Assembly: GCA_017503015.1 (NCBI GenBank)
Contig: JAFVTX010000050.1
Span: forward strand, 62,001-126,000
Source of the DNA: Fibrobacter sp.
GTDB lineage: Bacteria; Fibrobacterota; Fibrobacteria; Fibrobacterales; Fibrobacteraceae
DNA length: 64,000 bases
Reading direction: 5' to 3'
The notes under the pieces are model-generated. The model did not search any database and had not been told where the DNA came from. It saw only the letters and a program-made list of their open reading frames with translations. Shown here in pieces: positions 51,009-63,283 of the stretch (position 1 is its first letter; each line of letters opens with the position of its first letter). Position numbers and translations under genes: made by a program.

Positions 51009-53972
<2,964 letters not shown>

Positions 53973-54005: not shown

Positions 54006-55790
54006 TCAGCTGTCTGTTTCCTGACTACCTTCGATAATCCACTTACACAGTTCCAAGATTCCCTCGTAGTCAGGCAGGCTTTTGATGAAGTCTGGCGATT
54101 TGCTCCGTTCCACAAATCCGTTCCAGGCGCCTTCGTTTTTTGCCTTGATTCCCAGGTGCTCTTCGATAGCGCCGTGGGTCCACACCCAGATTCCCTGGCT
54201 CCGGAGTTTAGCGTGAATACTCTTGATGGGCCGCTCCGCCTCGGGCATGGACGCCATCATGGAATAGGCCATAGAAGCACTGATGTTGCTGTGCTTACTC
54301 ACGGGGAGGCCGTTGTTCAGGCGCAGGTGATGGTGGAACGCCAGTTCCCTAAACAGGTTCCTGCAGAACTTCACGTCAGGGTCGTTGGCTTCCAAGAATC
54401 CGTCCCGGGTAGCTGTGGTAAAGGCATAGTCCAAATCCACAATAGCCCGTACCGGCATGTCCATGGCGTTCAGCACCTGCATACTCTTGCGGGTGTTGCT
54501 CACGCCTCCCTGACGCACAAGGGCGCACTTGATAAGGGCAAAGGATTTCCCGGTAATGCGCTCAAACAGAGCCGGTAGAACCCGCCATTCTGTCTTGCCT
54601 TCGGTCAGCAACACATAGTCCGCAAACAAAAGTTCGTTACTGTTGCTCAAGCTGAACAGCATCTGCAGTTGGCTAGGAGCATCTTGCACCACCTGATGCA
54701 CCGCATCTTCGATTCGCTTGCGCATGAAGGTGCCCCGTTCCTTGTTCTTGCGGATCAGGAGGGAAGTGCTCACGTCTTCGCTGGTCACCATCTGAGCGCT
54801 GTGGGTGGCGAACACGATCTGGTAACCTTCGTTGGAGAGATTTTTCAGGGCCACACGCACCAGTTCTACCGCCTGGGGATGCAGGAACAGTTCCGGAGAA
54901 TCTATCAGGAGCATTGTCCGGCTCAGGTAGTGGTTGTTGTGGTGCTTCTTGATTTCGGAAAGGTAACGGACCAGGGCCATCTGGATGGCACGTTGGCTTC
55001 CAGCTCCCATGCGGTTGATGTCTCGTTCAAATCCGTCATCCTCGTCGATGACCTTCAGGCTTGCCGTTTTCAAGAAGGTCTCCAGTGTGGGAATGGGAAT
55101 ATCCAGTTCCACTCGCACGCTGGGGAATAGCGGCTGCAATTTCTCGTTGACTTCCCGGTCGAAGGACTTGATTTCTGCGGCCTGGTTTTCGCCACCTGGT
55201 GAAAGCAGGTCGTTGAACTTTCCCAAAATGTCGTTAAACTCACCACCAAAACGCCGTTCCAGGGGCTTAAAAATTTCATGAAGCAGTTTGGTAAAGGCCT
55301 TGTTTCCTTCAAAATCCCAGATGGCGATAGGTTCCGGGAACATGCGCTTAAAGGCGTGCTTGAAATCGTCACCCACCCGCATCCAGCCCTTGCGGCTTCC
55401 GTTCTGTCGTTGCGGGGGTACCAACGCCCACAGTTCAACATTCTCCGGAGGTATTCCCGGTACCCGCTGAATTTTTTTCACCCGCAAACTTTCGCCGTTC
55501 AGGAACGGCACAATCTCTTTAGCCTTCTCTTCCCCCAGACGGCTCAATACTGTTTCCGAGATGCCCTGAAAAAGACCTTCCACCTCCACCGGTTCGTTAC
55601 TGTCGTCAAAATAAGAGACATCTAGCGAAAAGGGGGATAGCAACCACCGGATTCCCATAAGGATATTGGTCTTACCGGCATTGTTGTAGCCTATCAGGGC
55701 GGTCATGTTGTTCAGGGGAAACGTCTGCCTGTGGATAGACCGCAGGTTGCAAATCGTAATCTCAGATAATCTTAACGGCTGGGGCTGCAT
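54006..55790 (-). CDS. OLD-family ATP-dependent nuclease (AAA ATPase + TOPRIM)
   Basis: A 594-residue OLD (overcoming lysogenization defect) family protein. N-terminal ABC-type ATPase with Walker A GYNNAGKTNI (34-43) and the LLIDSPELFLHPQ Walker B segment; His of the H-loop in FATHSAQMV. The C-terminal TOPRIM has LLTEGKTEWRVLPAL (catalytic Glu) and the metal pair in VDLDYAF. Walker B has Ser where the family usually has the second acidic residue (IEEPE/IDEPE). No UvrD-like GajB partner is adjacent, so it is not a Gabija pair; a class 1 OLD acting alone in phage defence or DNA repair is likely. The ATG at 55790 is preferred because TATATT ends 6 bases upstream; ATG 55805 and TTG 55817 are alternatives. 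Confidence 0.88.
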   Translation of the reverse strand: MQPQPLRLSEITICNLRSIHRQTFPLNNMTALIGYNNAGKTNILMGIRWLLSPFSLDVSYFDDSNEPVEVEGLFQGISETVLSRLGEEKAKEIVPFLNGESLRVKKIQRVPGIPPENVELWALVPPQRQNGSRKGWMRVGDDFKHAFKRMFPEPIAIWDFEGNKAFTKLLHEIFKPLERRFGGEFNDILGKFNDLLSPGGENQAAEIKSFDREVNEKLQPLFPSVRVELDIPIPTLETFLKTASLKVIDEDDGFERDINRMGAGSQRAIQMALVRYLSEIKKHHNNHYLSRTMLLIDSPELFLHPQAVELVRVALKNLSNEGYQIVFATHSAQMVTSEDVSTSLLIRKNKERGTFMRKRIEDAVHQVVQDAPSQLQMLFSLSNSNELLFADYVLLTEGKTEWRVLPALFERITGKSFALIKCALVRQGGVSNTRKSMQVLNAMDMPVRAIVDLDYAFTTATRDGFLEANDPDVKFCRNLFRELAFHHHLRLNNGLPVSKHSNISASMAYSMMASMPEAERPIKSIHAKLRSQGIWVWTHGAIEEHLGIKAKNEGAWNGFVERSKSPDFIKSLPDYEGILELCKWIIEGSQETDS

Positions 55791-55836
55791 ATCCTGAATA
55801 TACATTATTAGGGGCAAAAAATTCTACATTCTAGAT

Positions 55837-56280
55837 ATGATTTGCCCCTTCTGCAAGAACGACAACGACAAGGTGGTGGACAGCCGCGTCAGTGGCGACT
55901 CCATCCGCCGTCGTCGGGAATGTACCGCCTGCGGTCGCCGTTTTACCACCCGGGAATACATCGAAATCCAACCGCTTATCGTGGTCAAGCGTAACGGCGA
56001 CCGTGAACCCTTCCAGCGGGAAAAACTTCTGGCCGGTATCGCCAACTCCTGCAAAAAGCGTCCGGTGACCCAGGCCGCCATCGAAGAAATCGCCTCCACC
56101 ATCGAAAACAACCTGATTTCCAACGACAATCTGGAAGTGACCTACGACCAGATAGGCAACCTGGTCATGCAGGAACTAAAGAAACTGGACCCGGTGGCCT
56201 ATGTCCGGTTCGCTTCCGTCTATCGCGAGTTCAAGGAAGTTGGGGAATTCGTGGACCAGATCAAGACCCTGGACAAGTAA
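55837..56280 (+). CDS. nrdR: Transcriptional repressor NrdR
   Basis: A 147-residue ribonucleotide-reductase regulator. An N-terminal zinc ribbon (Cys3-x2-Cys6 in MICPFCKN and Cys29-x2-Cys32 in ECTACGRRF) is followed by an ATP-cone (PLIVVKRNGDREPFQREKLLAGI) that senses dATP/ATP. It binds NrdR boxes before nrd genes; none of those genes is in the window. Divergent from the OLD nuclease with a very short gap. TACATT ends 6 bases before the ATG. Confidence 0.97.
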   Translation: MICPFCKNDNDKVVDSRVSGDSIRRRRECTACGRRFTTREYIEIQPLIVVKRNGDREPFQREKLLAGIANSCKKRPVTQAAIEEIASTIENNLISNDNLEVTYDQIGNLVMQELKKLDPVAYVRFASVYREFKEVGEFVDQIKTLDK

Positions 56281-56306: not shown

Positions 56307-56313
56307 TTTCTCG

Positions 56314-56387
<74 letters not shown>

Positions 56388-56965: not shown

Positions 56966-57529
56966 ATGGAAGGCGACTGGCAAACAGTTTCAACGCTGAA
57001 CGGTACGGTTTATCTGGCGGTTGTCCCGAAGGCCAATCACAGGGAGCATATTTTCAAAAAGCTTTCCCAGGCCCTCGGCCGTACCATTACCGCCCAGGAC
57101 CTAAAAACCAGGCCCGGTTCCACGCGACCCGAATTTCCGGAACTTTCCGTCGATGCCAACTGGACTCACTCCAAGGACGTCTGCGTGCTGGCCTATTCCA
57201 GGGAATGCCGCGTCGGCATAGACCTGGAATTTCATTCCAGGAACCGGCTCAAACTTGCGGACCGTTTCTATTCCGACGAAGAAGTTAAGAGAATCCACCA
57301 AATTGAACAGACCGAAGGCGAAAGTGCCGCCATCAGGCTCTTTTACGCCCTCTGGTGTCGCAAAGAAGCTTTTTTCAAGTGCCAAGGCGGGGACTTTTTC
57401 GAAGGAACACTACGCAGGTCCCTTCTCGAAACCCGCATAGAAAACGTCCAATTGACGGACTTGGATCCGGCACCCCTCGGCATCCAGGGAGAATGCTCCC
57501 TGTGCCTTGCCACCATGCCTTTGGGTTAG
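56966..57529 (+). CDS. 4'-Phosphopantetheinyl transferase (Sfp/AcpT-like)
   Basis: A 187-residue enzyme that moves phosphopantetheine from CoA to a carrier protein Ser. Metal and catalytic residues fit the superfamily: Asp86 and Glu88 in VGIDLEFHSRN, then W130-x2-K133-E134-x3-K138 in LWCRKEAFFKCQGG. The length is between AcpS and full Sfp types, closer to a reduced Sfp-like enzyme. Its target carrier protein is not obvious; no ACP or NRPS gene is nearby. It ends in a 4-base convergent overlap with the next gene. Confidence 0.85.
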   Translation: MEGDWQTVSTLNGTVYLAVVPKANHREHIFKKLSQALGRTITAQDLKTRPGSTRPEFPELSVDANWTHSKDVCVLAYSRECRVGIDLEFHSRNRLKLADRFYSDEEVKRIHQIEQTEGESAAIRLFYALWCRKEAFFKCQGGDFFEGTLRRSLLETRIENVQLTDLDPAPLGIQGECSLCLATMPLG

Positions 57530-57963
57530 TTCTTCACTTCGCCGTCAGGAGCTTTCCCATTCCCGTGGGGCACTTCCAGGGCGTACAAGGGCAGGGCCAC
57601 GTATTCTTCGTCGTCGATAATCAGGCGAATCATGTACTTGTCGGGCCGCTCTATCTTCAGGCGCTGCATGTTCAGAATCAAGTTCATGGCAGCCGTGTCA
57701 AATCCCTTCGCCACAGGCTCAAAAGAAACGTTGGATTCCATGCCGGGAACAATGGGGTGTCCACACACGTCCTCGATAGAAAGCACCAGCTTGTGCACTC
57801 CGGCCTCGGCCCGCTGGTAACGGATACGGAAGGCCGCCGCACACTGGGGAATCACCAGCGGGAACTGTGAAAAGATTCTGTCAAAAGAACCGAGAATGTT
57901 CAAGCGGCCGCCGGCCCCGTTGGCCGTCGCCGCGTCGCAAATAGAAGCAATTTCAACAATCAT
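57526..57963 (-). CDS. Conserved cytoplasmic protein of unknown function, DUF6941-like
   Basis: A 145-residue soluble protein starting MIVEIASICDAATANGAGGRL, then NILGSFDRIFSQFPLVIPQCAAAFRIRYQ and a closing IRLIIDDEEYVALPLYALEVP. The layout resembles a small family (DUF6941) of unknown role; I am not certain. No signal peptide. It lies one base downstream of the 1772-residue lipoprotein gene, so it is probably translated from the same mRNA, and its 3' end overlaps the convergent PPTase gene by 4 bases. Confidence 0.6.
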   Translation of the reverse strand: MIVEIASICDAATANGAGGRLNILGSFDRIFSQFPLVIPQCAAAFRIRYQRAEAGVHKLVLSIEDVCGHPIVPGMESNVSFEPVAKGFDTAAMNLILNMQRLKIERPDKYMIRLIIDDEEYVALPLYALEVPHGNGKAPDGEVKN

Positions 57964-57964
57964 A

Positions 57965-60900
57965 TTAAGGTTTGGTGTTGAAGGTCCAACTTTCAGAAAT
58001 ATTTTTCATGAATATGGGTCCGTTGTTTTGGCTTGCCGCTCCGGAACTTGTCCAGGAAATCATAGAAATATATACCATGCCATTTGTAGAAACTGCTATC
58101 TCCGGAGCAAATCCATAAAGATTGTACCCATGGCTAGCATAGAACGGACCCTTGAAATACGGGAGCTGGTTTTCGCCATAAGGATTCCAACGAATGCCAT
58201 CGTAGAAATAAGCGTGACAATGAGAGAATCCTCGACCGTTATCATCGATAATTGCATAAACCTTGCCGTTAAAGGAGGTTACCCTGATATTTGTTGGTAA
58301 CATACCCTCTTGAAGGTTTGTGCCATTATCTAACGACAAGCCCGAAAGGCTGACCGGTCCTTTCTTAACATAGGGCCCAGCCTTACCAACCACAGAAGAT
58401 CGATTGATATACCCAAGATACACCGTATTCCCGTTGGATGCAAGACTGATACTCCCCATTTCCTTGGATATTAGCGAAGGAGCAATCTTTTCGGAATACG
58501 AAGTATTATATATGGCATAATATGAATTGTACAAATAGGTGTTGTCCGTGAAGGTTATCAAGAATACTTTCGTGCTGGTAAACACTCCATTCACATCCCT
58601 TGCCGTGAGAGTGTTCGAAATGGATTTCTCCGTCCATTTTGATCCCGTCCAATAGCTGAAATAGGGATGATTTTCCTTAGCGTAGGTCACTACCGGATTA
58701 TTATTGTCGGTGTTATAGGTCAAATTCAGCGAAGTTGCACCGCTAATAGGCTGGCCTACTGCCGTCCAAGCCGAATTAACCGAAGCGGTCTTGTAAACAT
58801 AAAGTTTATTTGCCGTCGTAAGTATGGCCAAGAATACCGCAGAATTACTCTGATCGTTAATACTGGTCATTCGCATAGCCACTACAGAATCTTCAAGGGA
58901 GATGTTCGAAATGTTTGCCCAGCTTTGTCCGTTATAGTATTTTGTTACAATTGTATTTCCTGGGATTGCATAGGCAACAACTAAATTTGTACCGAAGGTG
59001 GTTATCGCAGGCGGTGTACGCACGGTAGATTTTTGCAAAACTGTATCACTTGCCGCGGCAAGATTTTTCCAAGCGCGTTGCACATACACCGTACGGCAGA
59101 ACATTTCAGCCTGGTGGCGGTTCATAAACGTCACATCAGGATTTGCAGAAGAACTATCCCTAAAGTCTAGGCACACACTTATGGTACCTTCGGAAGTGGG
59201 ACGTCTAAAGGCATCATTGAACTGAGCGATGTTCGTATCCAAAGAACCGTCGGCTTTGCCCTTGTAGAAAGTACTACCCACATTACTAAACCGCCAATAG
59301 TATTCCCTTAGATTGTCGTTTCCAAGCGTCCCTTTTACCGATTGGGCTCCACTCCACTCCGGAGAATAGTAATAGAGCGCTTCACCACTTTGCGCTTCGT
59401 CACCGCTCCAGGGATAAATTGTATCCACGGCCGTGATTTTTCCAATTGGGAGATTTGCAGATGTTAACACGTTCACATAAGTCGTGTCGCGGAACACGGC
59501 TTTGGTACTGCTTTCTTGGGCGGATACGACACAATATAGGTTCACGCCCAAATTGCTCATACTCTCTCTATACGAATAGAATCTACCCGTATACTTCAGA
59601 TGCACATCATCTTCCAACGATTGTTTTGTACTTGCATTGAAGCATTGCCAACTGTACCAATCGATTCCTTGCCATACACTATTGGTATCTGCATCCAATA
59701 GAATCACGTCTCCCTTTGCAACATACTTTACAGAGACATCCACAGAAATTGTCGGTATCTCCGTAGAATAAATTATTTTCATGGTTGACGTAGCAACATT
59801 CCCATCATCGTCAGTTGCTCGTGCCACACAAGAGAAGTTCGCCGTAGCAGTAGGTGCTGTCCACGTCGTATCAAAGGTAGAAACCGTTTTCCAATTACTG
59901 TTAATCGCCGCAGCATCACGACCGCAACTCCATTCCCGTTTTGCAATAAACCCTTTCTTGTCTTGGGCTGTGGCATTGAGAACTATTGCATAACCCTCTC
60001 GAACAATAGCCGAATCACGGGCGACTTTCACTGTAGGCGGATCCAATTCCACTACAAAGCGAGTGGTATCCTTTGCCGTAAGGTCGTCGTCGTCCTTCAC
60101 CTGCACAATGCAGAGGTAGAGGCTATACGGTTCCGATGGCATTATCGCTTGGTACGTTGCCTTGCCTGAAGTCAATTTGCTTAAGATGTTATTGTCACTA
60201 CCGGGTCCACAGCCCCACTCATAAGAAACAATCCGTCCTGGTAAAGTCGCTTCCGAAGAATCCTTAGCATTAGCATAGAGGCTGACCGTATCCTTAATAG
60301 AAACATTAAAGGATTCGTTCACGGTAACCGTAGGCGGTGCGCGGAAAACCTTATAAACGACAGTATCCAACGAATAGAGCAAAGGTTCCTCGGCGTCGGC
60401 GGCACGCATAACGCAATAGTAGTTTCCTGCCGTTTCTGGCATGGAAATTACCGGTGTCAGCGTATTGCCGCGACCTTGCCACAAGCTAACCCAGCTAGCC
60501 GGCTTTAAGTTATTCAAGTTGCGATCGCAAGCCAAATCCACATCTATGGGGCCGCCTAACGTATTTCCCGTAGTATACTTTACTTGTTCCTGGTCTTTAA
60601 TAGTGACATTCTTACTGTGAATATTCAAGCGAATTGTCGGAATGTCCTTGATGACGTTGAAAGTCATGGCAACGGAATCCTTCTGATTATCGTCATCAAC
60701 TGCAAAGACGTAGCACTTGTAATTTGCGGCTTCACTATTCGGCAATTGAATCTCCATGGAGTCCGTAACTGGATTTTCTAGCTTCGTAACAGCAAAGGCT
60801 GTGTAGGCACCCGTACCACAACGGTAGCCCACTTCCTTGACTCTTCCATACTTGTCCTTAGCCGTGTACTCGAACTTGTGCTTGGAATTCACCTTCTTGT

Positions 60901-63283
60901 CGATAGTTTCCTCGTTATCGTCCACAGTAATGGTCGGAGGATCCTTGATAACATTGACCTGCAAGGTGTCCGTAGCCGTCTTACCTTGGTTATTGGTTGC
61001 AACGACAACAATCCTTTTCGTTCCGGAGCTTGTCCAAGACTTCTGGGGATTCTGGGTGTTTTTAGGGAAACAGTTGTCAGTCTTATTACTACCGTCAAAG
61101 CACGTCCAGTCTAGCGATGTAATTGCACCACTTCCGTCATTAGGAATCACTTCTGTCACCAAGAAGATTTCGTCATTCAGGGAAATAGTCGTATCATAGA
61201 CCGGAGACGTAATGGTCACCATAGGCCCGTCACTATAGAATCCGAATCGCACCGTATTCGAAACAGCTCCGTTATCAGCCACAGCATGCATCGTATATCG
61301 AACGTTGGGGACAACATTTGCAGGGACATTTTCCTTCTTCAATTTAATCGTTGCAGTCCCGTTAGAAACATCGGTCTGACGGGGATTGTCTCCAGGAATA
61401 TTTGAAATCCAGGTCACCACAGAAACAGGAGGCTTGGCATCTACGTCAACCGCCACTTTAAAGGTTAATTCATCTGAGTTGCCAGCCATAGCAGAACTAG
61501 CGTTATTTACAGTAAGAGTCATATTTGTAGCAGAAACCACAAAGGTAAACGTCGTATCGCTGCGGTAACCAGCACTGTCTGTCGCCGCAAGTTTGAAGGT
61601 GTATGTACCGTCCGATAAGCCGACAAAATCTACGCTCCACGCATGGCTGGTCAAGTTAGAAAAGTGGCATGGGCTATCCTTCACCCCGCACGTATCCTTA
61701 CCAAGCACAGCCACCGCTGTCTTCACCTGGGAGCCATAGTCACTGAATCTTCCGGACGCGACGAAGGCTCGGACAGCAATTGTATCTTCAATGCCCTTGA
61801 CATTGTAGATGCGTGGTGGTGCAGGGTCTTTGAGCAAAATAAGAGGCAGCTCTTTCTCGTCACCTGCATTGATGTTTGGAGTCCTGGTGGTAACCTTTAC
61901 AAAGCCCCGGCCAGTTTCATCGGAGGCGGTCAGTTTGAACGTTCCGGCAGGCAGGTCAGACACCCTGAATTCTCCCTTGGCGTTGGTGCTAGCGGTATAA
62001 ATGTTACTAGTGTCGGCTGAATTGACCAAGGTTATCTTGATTCCAGAGTGGACGGACAGACCCTCGAACTTGGCGGTTCCTATAAAGTCACAAGTAGACT
62101 TGCTTGGACCCAGGTAAAAATAACGCGGTCGCTTACCCTTGCTGGTCTTGATTTTTTCGGCAACCACGGTGTCGTAGCCATCGGTCACCCACACGTCCCA
62201 AGAGAAATATCTGCCCGTAAAGCCCAATTTTTTCAGTTCATTCTCTCCGTTTTCGATAACGGCAAAACTTGTGGAAGTACTGTTCTTTAGCACCAAGTCG
62301 TAAACATTAGACAAGTTCAGATCGCTTTCCTGGTCGTCCGGTGTGGGAGCCACACGAACGTAATACCTCAATTGCTCTTCGTTATCCCTGTCGTGGCCCT
62401 CATAGAACAACCGGAAGGCTTCCACCGTATCACTTATCCTCTGTTGGTCGTCTGGGCCCAAGATTTTGATAGTAGGCAATTGGTTGAAATGTAAGAAAGC
62501 ACTGTCCTTCGTGGTGTTCTTGTCGTCGTCAGTGACAATAATGTAAATCTTCTGATTTCCAAGGCTGTCCGTAAGGGTTGAATCGTAGGGAATCGTAATT
62601 ATCAGGCTATCCGAGGTTTCACTCTTGGTATACTTCCAATCCTTCGCCTCGCGTTTACCCGCCGCATCCAAATCAACCTTGAAAGAGGTTATCGTACCAA
62701 ATGAATCTAGCGCAAGTATGGGGAACGTAACAGGACTCTTGGCCCTGGTCCAAAGAGTATCCTTAGGAACACCTAAATAAGGCGGCGTGTTGATGACTCT
62801 GATAAACTGGTCTTTGCCAGCAGTATCCGTCGCGCTATTTCCGTCAACCGCAACAAACAGGGGCGAATAAACCCCCTCCTTCATATAGACCCAAGACTGG
62901 GGGGTGGCGTTGTGCCCCGTAACCAGGGCCTTTTTCATCTGGTCCTTCCCCTTGCCGGTGGTGTCCTTTACAAGGCTGTCCAAAATCCACTGATACAGAT
63001 ATATCTTGTCGGAATTGTAACGCAAGAACCCCATCATATGAATGGTATCGCCTATGGTGACCGTAACAGTATCATTTACGATGACAGAATCAGGGTTAGG
63101 CAGGTTGATAATGGAGTCAGCAAAAGCATCAGGATTTTCAAAGGGCGTCTTATAGATAAACACTACGGAATGGTTATTCCGCAAATTCACATTTTCCTTG
63201 ATGGATGACTCTCTGGAACAATTCACCAGAGCCATCGTACACAAGATCAACCCAAACAATAAAAACAAAGTTTTTAACCGCAT
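57965..63283 (-). CDS. Very large multidomain surface lipoprotein (Ig/PKD-like repeats)
   Basis: A 1772-residue exported lipoprotein (lipobox ending at Cys22, ALVNC). Roughly: 60-390, divergent PKD-like strands (DTIHMMGFLRYNSDKIYLYQW; IIVTDDDKNT); 398-470, a carboxypeptidase-regulatory-like domain (IGTAKFEGLSVHSGIKITLV); 500-620, another beta domain; about 640-1290, six repeats of 93-107 residues each with one Cys pair (such as WxCF...C, RCGT...YKCYVFAVDDD, EWGCGPG...YLCIVQVKDDDD, EWSCGRD...FSCVARATDDDG); 1424-1772, a region with short W/Y repeats that may be a beta-propeller. DD(D) ends to the repeats suggest calcium binding. SD GAGGA precedes the start. A surface or adhesion role is likely; nothing identifies the ligand. 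Confidence 0.75.
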   Translation of the reverse strand: MRLKTLFLLFGLILCTMALVNCSRESSIKENVNLRNNHSVVFIYKTPFENPDAFADSIINLPNPDSVIVNDTVTVTIGDTIHMMGFLRYNSDKIYLYQWILDSLVKDTTGKGKDQMKKALVTGHNATPQSWVYMKEGVYSPLFVAVDGNSATDTAGKDQFIRVINTPPYLGVPKDTLWTRAKSPVTFPILALDSFGTITSFKVDLDAAGKREAKDWKYTKSETSDSLIITIPYDSTLTDSLGNQKIYIIVTDDDKNTTKDSAFLHFNQLPTIKILGPDDQQRISDTVEAFRLFYEGHDRDNEEQLRYYVRVAPTPDDQESDLNLSNVYDLVLKNSTSTSFAVIENGENELKKLGFTGRYFSWDVWVTDGYDTVVAEKIKTSKGKRPRYFYLGPSKSTCDFIGTAKFEGLSVHSGIKITLVNSADTSNIYTASTNAKGEFRVSDLPAGTFKLTASDETGRGFVKVTTRTPNINAGDEKELPLILLKDPAPPRIYNVKGIEDTIAVRAFVASGRFSDYGSQVKTAVAVLGKDTCGVKDSPCHFSNLTSHAWSVDFVGLSDGTYTFKLAATDSAGYRSDTTFTFVVSATNMTLTVNNASSAMAGNSDELTFKVAVDVDAKPPVSVVTWISNIPGDNPRQTDVSNGTATIKLKKENVPANVVPNVRYTMHAVADNGAVSNTVRFGFYSDGPMVTITSPVYDTTISLNDEIFLVTEVIPNDGSGAITSLDWTCFDGSNKTDNCFPKNTQNPQKSWTSSGTKRIVVVATNNQGKTATDTLQVNVIKDPPTITVDDNEETIDKKVNSKHKFEYTAKDKYGRVKEVGYRCGTGAYTAFAVTKLENPVTDSMEIQLPNSEAANYKCYVFAVDDDNQKDSVAMTFNVIKDIPTIRLNIHSKNVTIKDQEQVKYTTGNTLGGPIDVDLACDRNLNNLKPASWVSLWQGRGNTLTPVISMPETAGNYYCVMRAADAEEPLLYSLDTVVYKVFRAPPTVTVNESFNVSIKDTVSLYANAKDSSEATLPGRIVSYEWGCGPGSDNNILSKLTSGKATYQAIMPSEPYSLYLCIVQVKDDDDLTAKDTTRFVVELDPPTVKVARDSAIVREGYAIVLNATAQDKKGFIAKREWSCGRDAAAINSNWKTVSTFDTTWTAPTATANFSCVARATDDDGNVATSTMKIIYSTEIPTISVDVSVKYVAKGDVILLDADTNSVWQGIDWYSWQCFNASTKQSLEDDVHLKYTGRFYSYRESMSNLGVNLYCVVSAQESSTKAVFRDTTYVNVLTSANLPIGKITAVDTIYPWSGDEAQSGEALYYYSPEWSGAQSVKGTLGNDNLREYYWRFSNVGSTFYKGKADGSLDTNIAQFNDAFRRPTSEGTISVCLDFRDSSSANPDVTFMNRHQAEMFCRTVYVQRAWKNLAAASDTVLQKSTVRTPPAITTFGTNLVVAYAIPGNTIVTKYYNGQSWANISNISLEDSVVAMRMTSINDQSNSAVFLAILTTANKLYVYKTASVNSAWTAVGQPISGATSLNLTYNTDNNNPVVTYAKENHPYFSYWTGSKWTEKSISNTLTARDVNGVFTSTKVFLITFTDNTYLYNSYYAIYNTSYSEKIAPSLISKEMGSISLASNGNTVYLGYINRSSVVGKAGPYVKKGPVSLSGLSLDNGTNLQEGMLPTNIRVTSFNGKVYAIIDDNGRGFSHCHAYFYDGIRWNPYGENQLPYFKGPFYASHGYNLYGFAPEIAVSTNGMVYISMISWTSSGAASQNNGPIFMKNISESWTFNTKP

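Follow-up and report, generated by a model that had tools for sequence, protein, structure and literature searches.

A P2 Old relative nearly universal in Fibrobacter carries a family-wide Walker B serine that suggests an ATP-sensing switch

The rumen bacterium Fibrobacter and the family to which it belongs almost universally carry a chromosomal gene for a relative of the phage P2 Old nuclease. In all 92 gene-bearing genomes of that family (f1, for which we infer the name Fibrobacteraceae), the position of the catalytic Walker B glutamate is occupied by a serine (Ser303). This family-wide serine suggests that the protein senses ATP as a switch and does not consume it as a motor would. Standalone OLDs are the least understood OLD proteins, and a figure cited in PMC13261556 puts them in 0.45% of bacterial genomes. 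A targeted literature search returned no published account of the Fibrobacter OLD family or of its Walker B serine. The family combines a near-core OLD gene in cellulose-degrading bacteria with a naturally occurring exchange, the same in every copy, of the very residue that is expected to drive hydrolysis, and it can be regarded as a natural experiment on ATP hydrolysis versus binding alone as the control of OLD nucleases, which also informs the question of whether standalone OLDs act outside phage defense.

The OLD gene and its Walker B motif

The gene lies in a window of 64,000 nucleotides, which is the whole stretch of Fibrobacter sp. DNA that was analyzed, and occupies positions 54006..55805 on the minus strand. 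It encodes 599 residues from its ATG, and an alternative in-frame TTG start at 55817 would give an ORF at 54006-55817 on the same strand with 603 residues. The architecture of an N-terminal ABC-type ATPase and a C-terminal Toprim domain is present, as evidenced by PF13175 and PF20469 (profile matches AAA_15 and OLD-like_TOPRIM, Pfam/NCBIfam) and by a fold match of residues 12-596 to the OLD structure 6p74 from Thermus scotoductus (Ts OLD). The translation reads Walker A GYNNAGKT and Walker B LLIDSPELFLHP followed by the Toprim domain, and the conserved Walker A stretch GYNNAGKTN comprises residues 39-47 with Lys45 (55665..55691, minus strand). The Toprim nuclease half extends from about residue 393 to the end (54006..54629, minus strand; PF20469 at residues 393-459) and carries E402, E406, D457, D459, E548, and K556. 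An AlphaFold2 model of the protein (pLDDT 84.4, pTM 0.78) has the OLD fold, and its top Foldseek match is 6p74 (E 1.5e-20), with 463 residues aligned, a Z of 17.9, and an rmsd of 6.3.

Over its whole length, the PADLOC Old model gives 743 bits for the window protein versus 712 for P2 Old itself. Among phage proteins, the best match is P2 Old (32.8% identity over 97%, E 9e-83). In the neighbor clusters of 70 stretches, the gene has no constant partner, in agreement with the standalone arrangement (no helicase, reverse transcriptase, or AriB partner) that characterizes Class 1 OLDs, and in the window no UvrD/PcrA/Rep-like helicase adjoins it as GajB does in Gabija, the neighbors there being genes for isocitrate dehydrogenase and NrdR. 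Six of the seven P2 Toprim active-site residues are kept. The set of ATPase residues is incomplete at the Walker B glutamate, and this bears on activity and not on membership in Class 1, because that class is defined by gene context. Judged by its sequence, the Fibrobacter protein is a P2-Old-type Class 1 OLD with an ATPase head and a predicted Toprim nuclease. An earlier note on this DNA had described a standalone OLD-family protein, and the full-length similarity to P2 Old together with the lone-gene context now places it in Class 1 and with the P2 type.

The same note had pointed to a serine in place of the usual catalytic glutamate, and the Walker B sequence LLIDSPELFLHPQ is confirmed in the translation, with the core Asp302-Ser303-Pro-Glu-Leu (residues 302-306) aligning at 54888..54902 on the minus strand. 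All 94 copies, i.e., 92 from f1 and two from the sister family f2, were compared for Walker B and neighbors. Both f2 genomes have a glutamate at the catalytic position, where Walker B reads Glu-Glu, P2 Old and all of 25 relatives from viral contigs (17 distinct sequences) read Asp-Glu, and six out of six distant plasmid and phage relatives keep the catalytic glutamate as Asp-Glu or Glu-Glu. A DNA-level scan of 2.9 million viral contigs detected five stretches with DSPEL-type matches, none of them within an ATPase, and 102 stretches with the Asp-Glu form, whatever the gene. Among P2 Old, the viral contigs, f2, and the six distant relatives, a serine at this position was thus never found outside f1, so that the substitution is as unusual as had been supposed and serine is not common among other OLDs. 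Over the 94 copies, the codons at this site are TCG (44), TCT (28), TCA (10), TCC (9), and AGT (1), and the remaining two are GAG for the glutamates of f2. The diversity of serine codons indicates that synonymous positions drift while the residue stays.

Inheritance and genomic neighborhood

In f1, 92 of the 111 genomes carry the gene at full or almost full length, a count made from the genome listing without the weak matches. Within the genus, 75 of 80 genomes and 38 of 40 high-quality genomes carry it, and it is also present in the two f2 genomes listed. None of the 12 genomes of genus g4 has it, nor does the sole genome of g2, and it is also missing from the two genus genomes G009 and G010 (96% and 99% complete). 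Two genomes contain extra N-terminal old fragments of 43-54 residues beside the full gene, at C2:64905-65033 in G029 (L174) and at C65:1121-1282 in G030 (L147), the latter some 1.2 kb upstream of the complete gene.

A gene tree built from 109 distinct sequences unites the 91 from the family in a single clade (support 0.998) and recovers every multi-member genus (g1, g5, g6, g10, and g11) as monophyletic, with a support of only 0.698 in the case of g1. This pattern is as expected of vertical descent, as far as a gene tree can indicate. Relative to the window copy, the median dN/dS is 0.060 for the whole gene (50 computable pairs), 0.064 for the ATPase part (47 pairs), and 0.056 for the Toprim part (45 pairs), values that have to be read with dS near saturation (median 2.0) and with 41 of 91 pairs unusable for the full-length ratio. 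By these ratios, the gene is under purifying selection, with both domains retained. Decay to a pseudogene was considered and rejected, since the copies have open reading frames, selection constrains both halves, and several different codons encode the serine. The copy L098 has a stop inside the aligned stretch, and a single stop was flagged in a few other copies.

The neighbors of the gene differ between clades, and there is no constant partner. The commonest neighbor within the genus is a convergent gene for a monomeric isocitrate dehydrogenase (cluster c1, 30 members over 70 stretches), which in the window is located at 51747..53972 on the plus strand (PF03971, 1203.5 bits), and the window neighbors are metabolic genes. 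Near-universal vertical inheritance and housekeeping neighbors do not favor a mobile defense gene, and by analogy the near-core inheritance resembles that of Cran1 more than that of a mobile defense island. The protein may have a housekeeping role in genome maintenance or the cell cycle, as in the case of Cran1, with nucleotide binding being only structural. The presence of the gene in 38 of the 40 high-quality genus genomes, its metabolic neighbors, and the purifying selection speak for such a role, for which Cran1 is reported as a precedent of an essential non-defense OLD gene (PMC12796447). However, two of these 40 genomes and the whole of g4 (12 genomes) do without the gene, which is thus dispensable, and we consider a housekeeping function quite improbable.

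On its other side, the gene is flanked by the divergent nrdR (55837..56280, plus strand; TIGR00244, 177 bits with a cut-off of 124.65). The distance between the nrdR start and the OLD ATG at 55805 is 31 bp (46 bp with Met6 as the first residue), and the earlier statement that fewer than 50 bases separate the two genes is therefore correct for the window. From this proximity, it had been proposed that the pairing could tie a nuclease to the nucleotide level, i.e., that nrdR and the OLD gene are a dATP-tied regulatory pair. The two genes adjoin each other in 13 of the 94 genomes, however, and all 13 belong to one subclade at an identity of at least 88%. The gap is 31-39 bp in nine of them and 112-371 bp in the other four (L005, L011, L012, and L013). 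The window contains no NrdR-box-like site that a pattern scan would recognize, the consensus used being what we take to be the NrdR box. This absence has little weight, as the pattern gave 14 matches genome-wide and the reversed-pattern control also gave 14. Conserved synteny, and with it a conserved nrdR-linked unit to which nrdR would belong, had to be rejected on the grounds of the rare adjacency and the variable gap, and a regulatory pair is in our opinion extremely improbable. Further along the window, nrdR is followed immediately by a tRNA-Val (gac) gene on the other strand (56313-56387), and a DUF6941 gene (57526-57963) adjoins the gene of a 1772-residue protein (57965-63283) with PKD-type and carboxypeptidase-regulatory-like matches, some of which are below the Pfam cut-offs.

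ATP binding, hydrolysis, and the nuclease

The remaining machinery of the protein is largely preserved. Across the family, Walker A, Asp302, the D-loop histidine (His309), and the H-loop histidine (His335) are kept, and the equivalents of P2 H306, H332, E398, E402, D453, D455, E543, and K550 are conserved in all of 70 distinct sequences. The P2 K37 equivalent is kept in 69 of these 70, the remaining copy being truncated, and the D299 equivalent is an aspartate but a glutamate in the two f2 proteins. At the position of P2 D541, the 70 sequences have alanine, serine, or threonine (Ala546 in the window protein), and several viral relatives also have serine or alanine there. The description of the TOPRIM residues as intact consequently applies to six of them (E398, E402, D453, D455, E543, and K550) and has to be corrected for D541. 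In P2 Old, the mutated ATPase and Toprim residues are each reported to be required to kill recBC cells, with a partial effect of D541A, and E300 is absent from the P2 Old mutants named there (PMC7049728).

With P2 Old as the closest characterized homolog, the protein may be a host-protective guard that senses RecBCD inhibition and cuts tRNA or DNA in abortive infection, with Ser303 tuning the ATPase rather than killing it. The host genome contains adjacent RecC- and RecB-like genes that are nearly full length, with scores below the curated cut-offs. Cleavage of tRNA by P2 OLD has reportedly been described by Govande et al. in 2025. According to PMC13261556, P2 Old senses RecBC inhibition and cleaves a host tRNA. 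A correlation between the OLD gene and RecBCD gave no signal among the 167 phylum genomes, as RecC homologs are present in 152 of them, with or without the OLD gene, and their presence is therefore uninformative about an association. The near-core presence (92/111), the vertical inheritance, and the housekeeping neighbors differ from what is typical of mobile defense genes. Moreover, P2 Old ATPase mutants lose killing. A guard function is unlikely in our assessment.

We tentatively prefer the explanation that the ATPase head binds ATP, hydrolyzes it poorly or not at all, and works as a switch by which nucleotide gates an intact Toprim nuclease. The ABC-type head would still bind ATP via the kept residues Lys45, Asp302 (Mg), His309, and His335. 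As the Walker B general base is lost and the ATP-binding residues are kept, the head should close on ATP, which would be held with slow or no turnover. Nucleotide occupancy would then hold the C-terminal Toprim nuclease in check in the manner of a static gate. Once the nucleotide level falls, or some trigger opens the heads, the nuclease would be released to cut nucleic acid, which may be RNA or DNA.

There are precedents for individual elements of this switch. GajA is reported to be without ATPase activity, with a nuclease that is inhibited by bound nucleotide including AMP-PNP (PMC8136825), and in CFTR/ABCC7 a Walker B glutamate is reported to be replaced by serine (PMC7756269). Other OLD proteins point in different directions. 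For Cran1, replacement of either Walker B glutamate by alanine is reported to change nothing, both in vitro and in vivo (PMC12796447), which indicates that the motif is dispensable in some OLDs and that the serine might matter less. Ts OLD hydrolyzes ATP at a reported 0.44 per min at its optimum, and its ATPase mutants are described as leaving the in vitro nuclease activity unchanged (PMC7049728), a result that speaks against simple gating in Class 1 OLDs. P2 Old depends on its ATPase residues for killing, so that the Fibrobacter protein may work in an altogether different way from P2 Old. For YbjD, a Walker A mutant is reported to retain the anti-phage phenotype (PMC13261556).

A counterpoint to a locked switch comes from a second substitution, as Asp164 could restore hydrolysis. 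In a column comparison of the 91 distinct family sequences with 18 sequences from outside (16 phage, 2 f2), 82 columns proved to be conserved within each of the two groups. The residues match in 78 of these columns but not in the other four (A164D, E254D, E303S, and S319A), and the only radical changes among the four are E303S and A164D. Position 164 is an aspartate in 91/91 distinct family sequences versus an alanine in 18/18 sequences outside, and of the six distant OLDs, five have alanine and the sixth has proline. In the AlphaFold2 model, residue 164 follows the strand 160-162 and precedes the long arm helix 168-201. In Ts OLD, a dimerization domain is inserted between beta8 and beta9, the Q-loop His140 is essential, and residues 143-148 are disordered. 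The model would accordingly place residue 164 where Ts OLD has its essential His140, just before the disordered residues, and Asp164 probably lies at, or a few residues from, the Q-loop position, with AIWDFEG (residues 161-167; 55305..55325, minus strand) as the putative Q-loop stretch by topology. When the OLD family profile was aligned with the SMC of the same genome by hhalign, the alignment was restricted to the P-loop (residues 11-56), and the Q-loop assignment is therefore based on the order of strand and helix and on the description of Ts OLD. If the assignment is correct, a relocated carboxylate is conceivable, with Asp164 polarizing the attacking water in a rewired center and the protein still being an ATPase. 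That the two radical changes are A164D and E303S would fit this idea. However, a single branch of the tree carries both changes, which makes their coupling one event, and an aspartate is shorter than a glutamate. A general base in the Q-loop is not known to us from any ABC-type enzyme. A relocated carboxylate has a rather low probability in our assessment.

More speculatively, and with considerable doubt, the family may have domesticated a P2-Old-like nuclease by removing the Walker B carboxylate and installing one at the Q-loop, which would result in a slow-timer ATPase or an ATP-locked sensor over an RNA- or DNA-cutting Toprim domain in normal physiology.

Comparison with known systems

P2 Old is likewise encoded by one gene, belongs to the same length class, and shares nearly all functional residues with the Fibrobacter OLD, but it has E300, an alanine, and D541 where the Fibrobacter protein has Ser303, Asp164, and Ala546, and it is carried on a prophage, whereas the Fibrobacter gene is chromosomal and near-core in its family. 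Ts OLD (6p74) has the same ATPase-Toprim architecture and is the best Foldseek match, but its Walker B motif is E-E, it has the Q-loop His140, and it hydrolyzes ATP. GajA, the Class 2 OLD of Gabija, shares the OLD fold, and its head is reported to be non-hydrolyzing and to regulate the Toprim nuclease. However, its Walker B motif is also E-E, and it is paired with GajB, whereas the Fibrobacter OLD is without a constant partner. Cran1, a Class 5 OLD of the Sulfolobales, is similarly a conserved chromosomal OLD that is apparently not antiviral, but it is described as keeping both Walker B acidic residues and as pairing with a membrane-protein gene (PMC12796447). The degenerate site of CFTR NBD1 is reported to have the same replacement of the catalytic Walker B glutamate by a serine (PMC7756269). 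CFTR, however, is an ion channel in which a degenerate site is combined with a normal one, whereas in a homodimeric OLD both sites would be degenerate.
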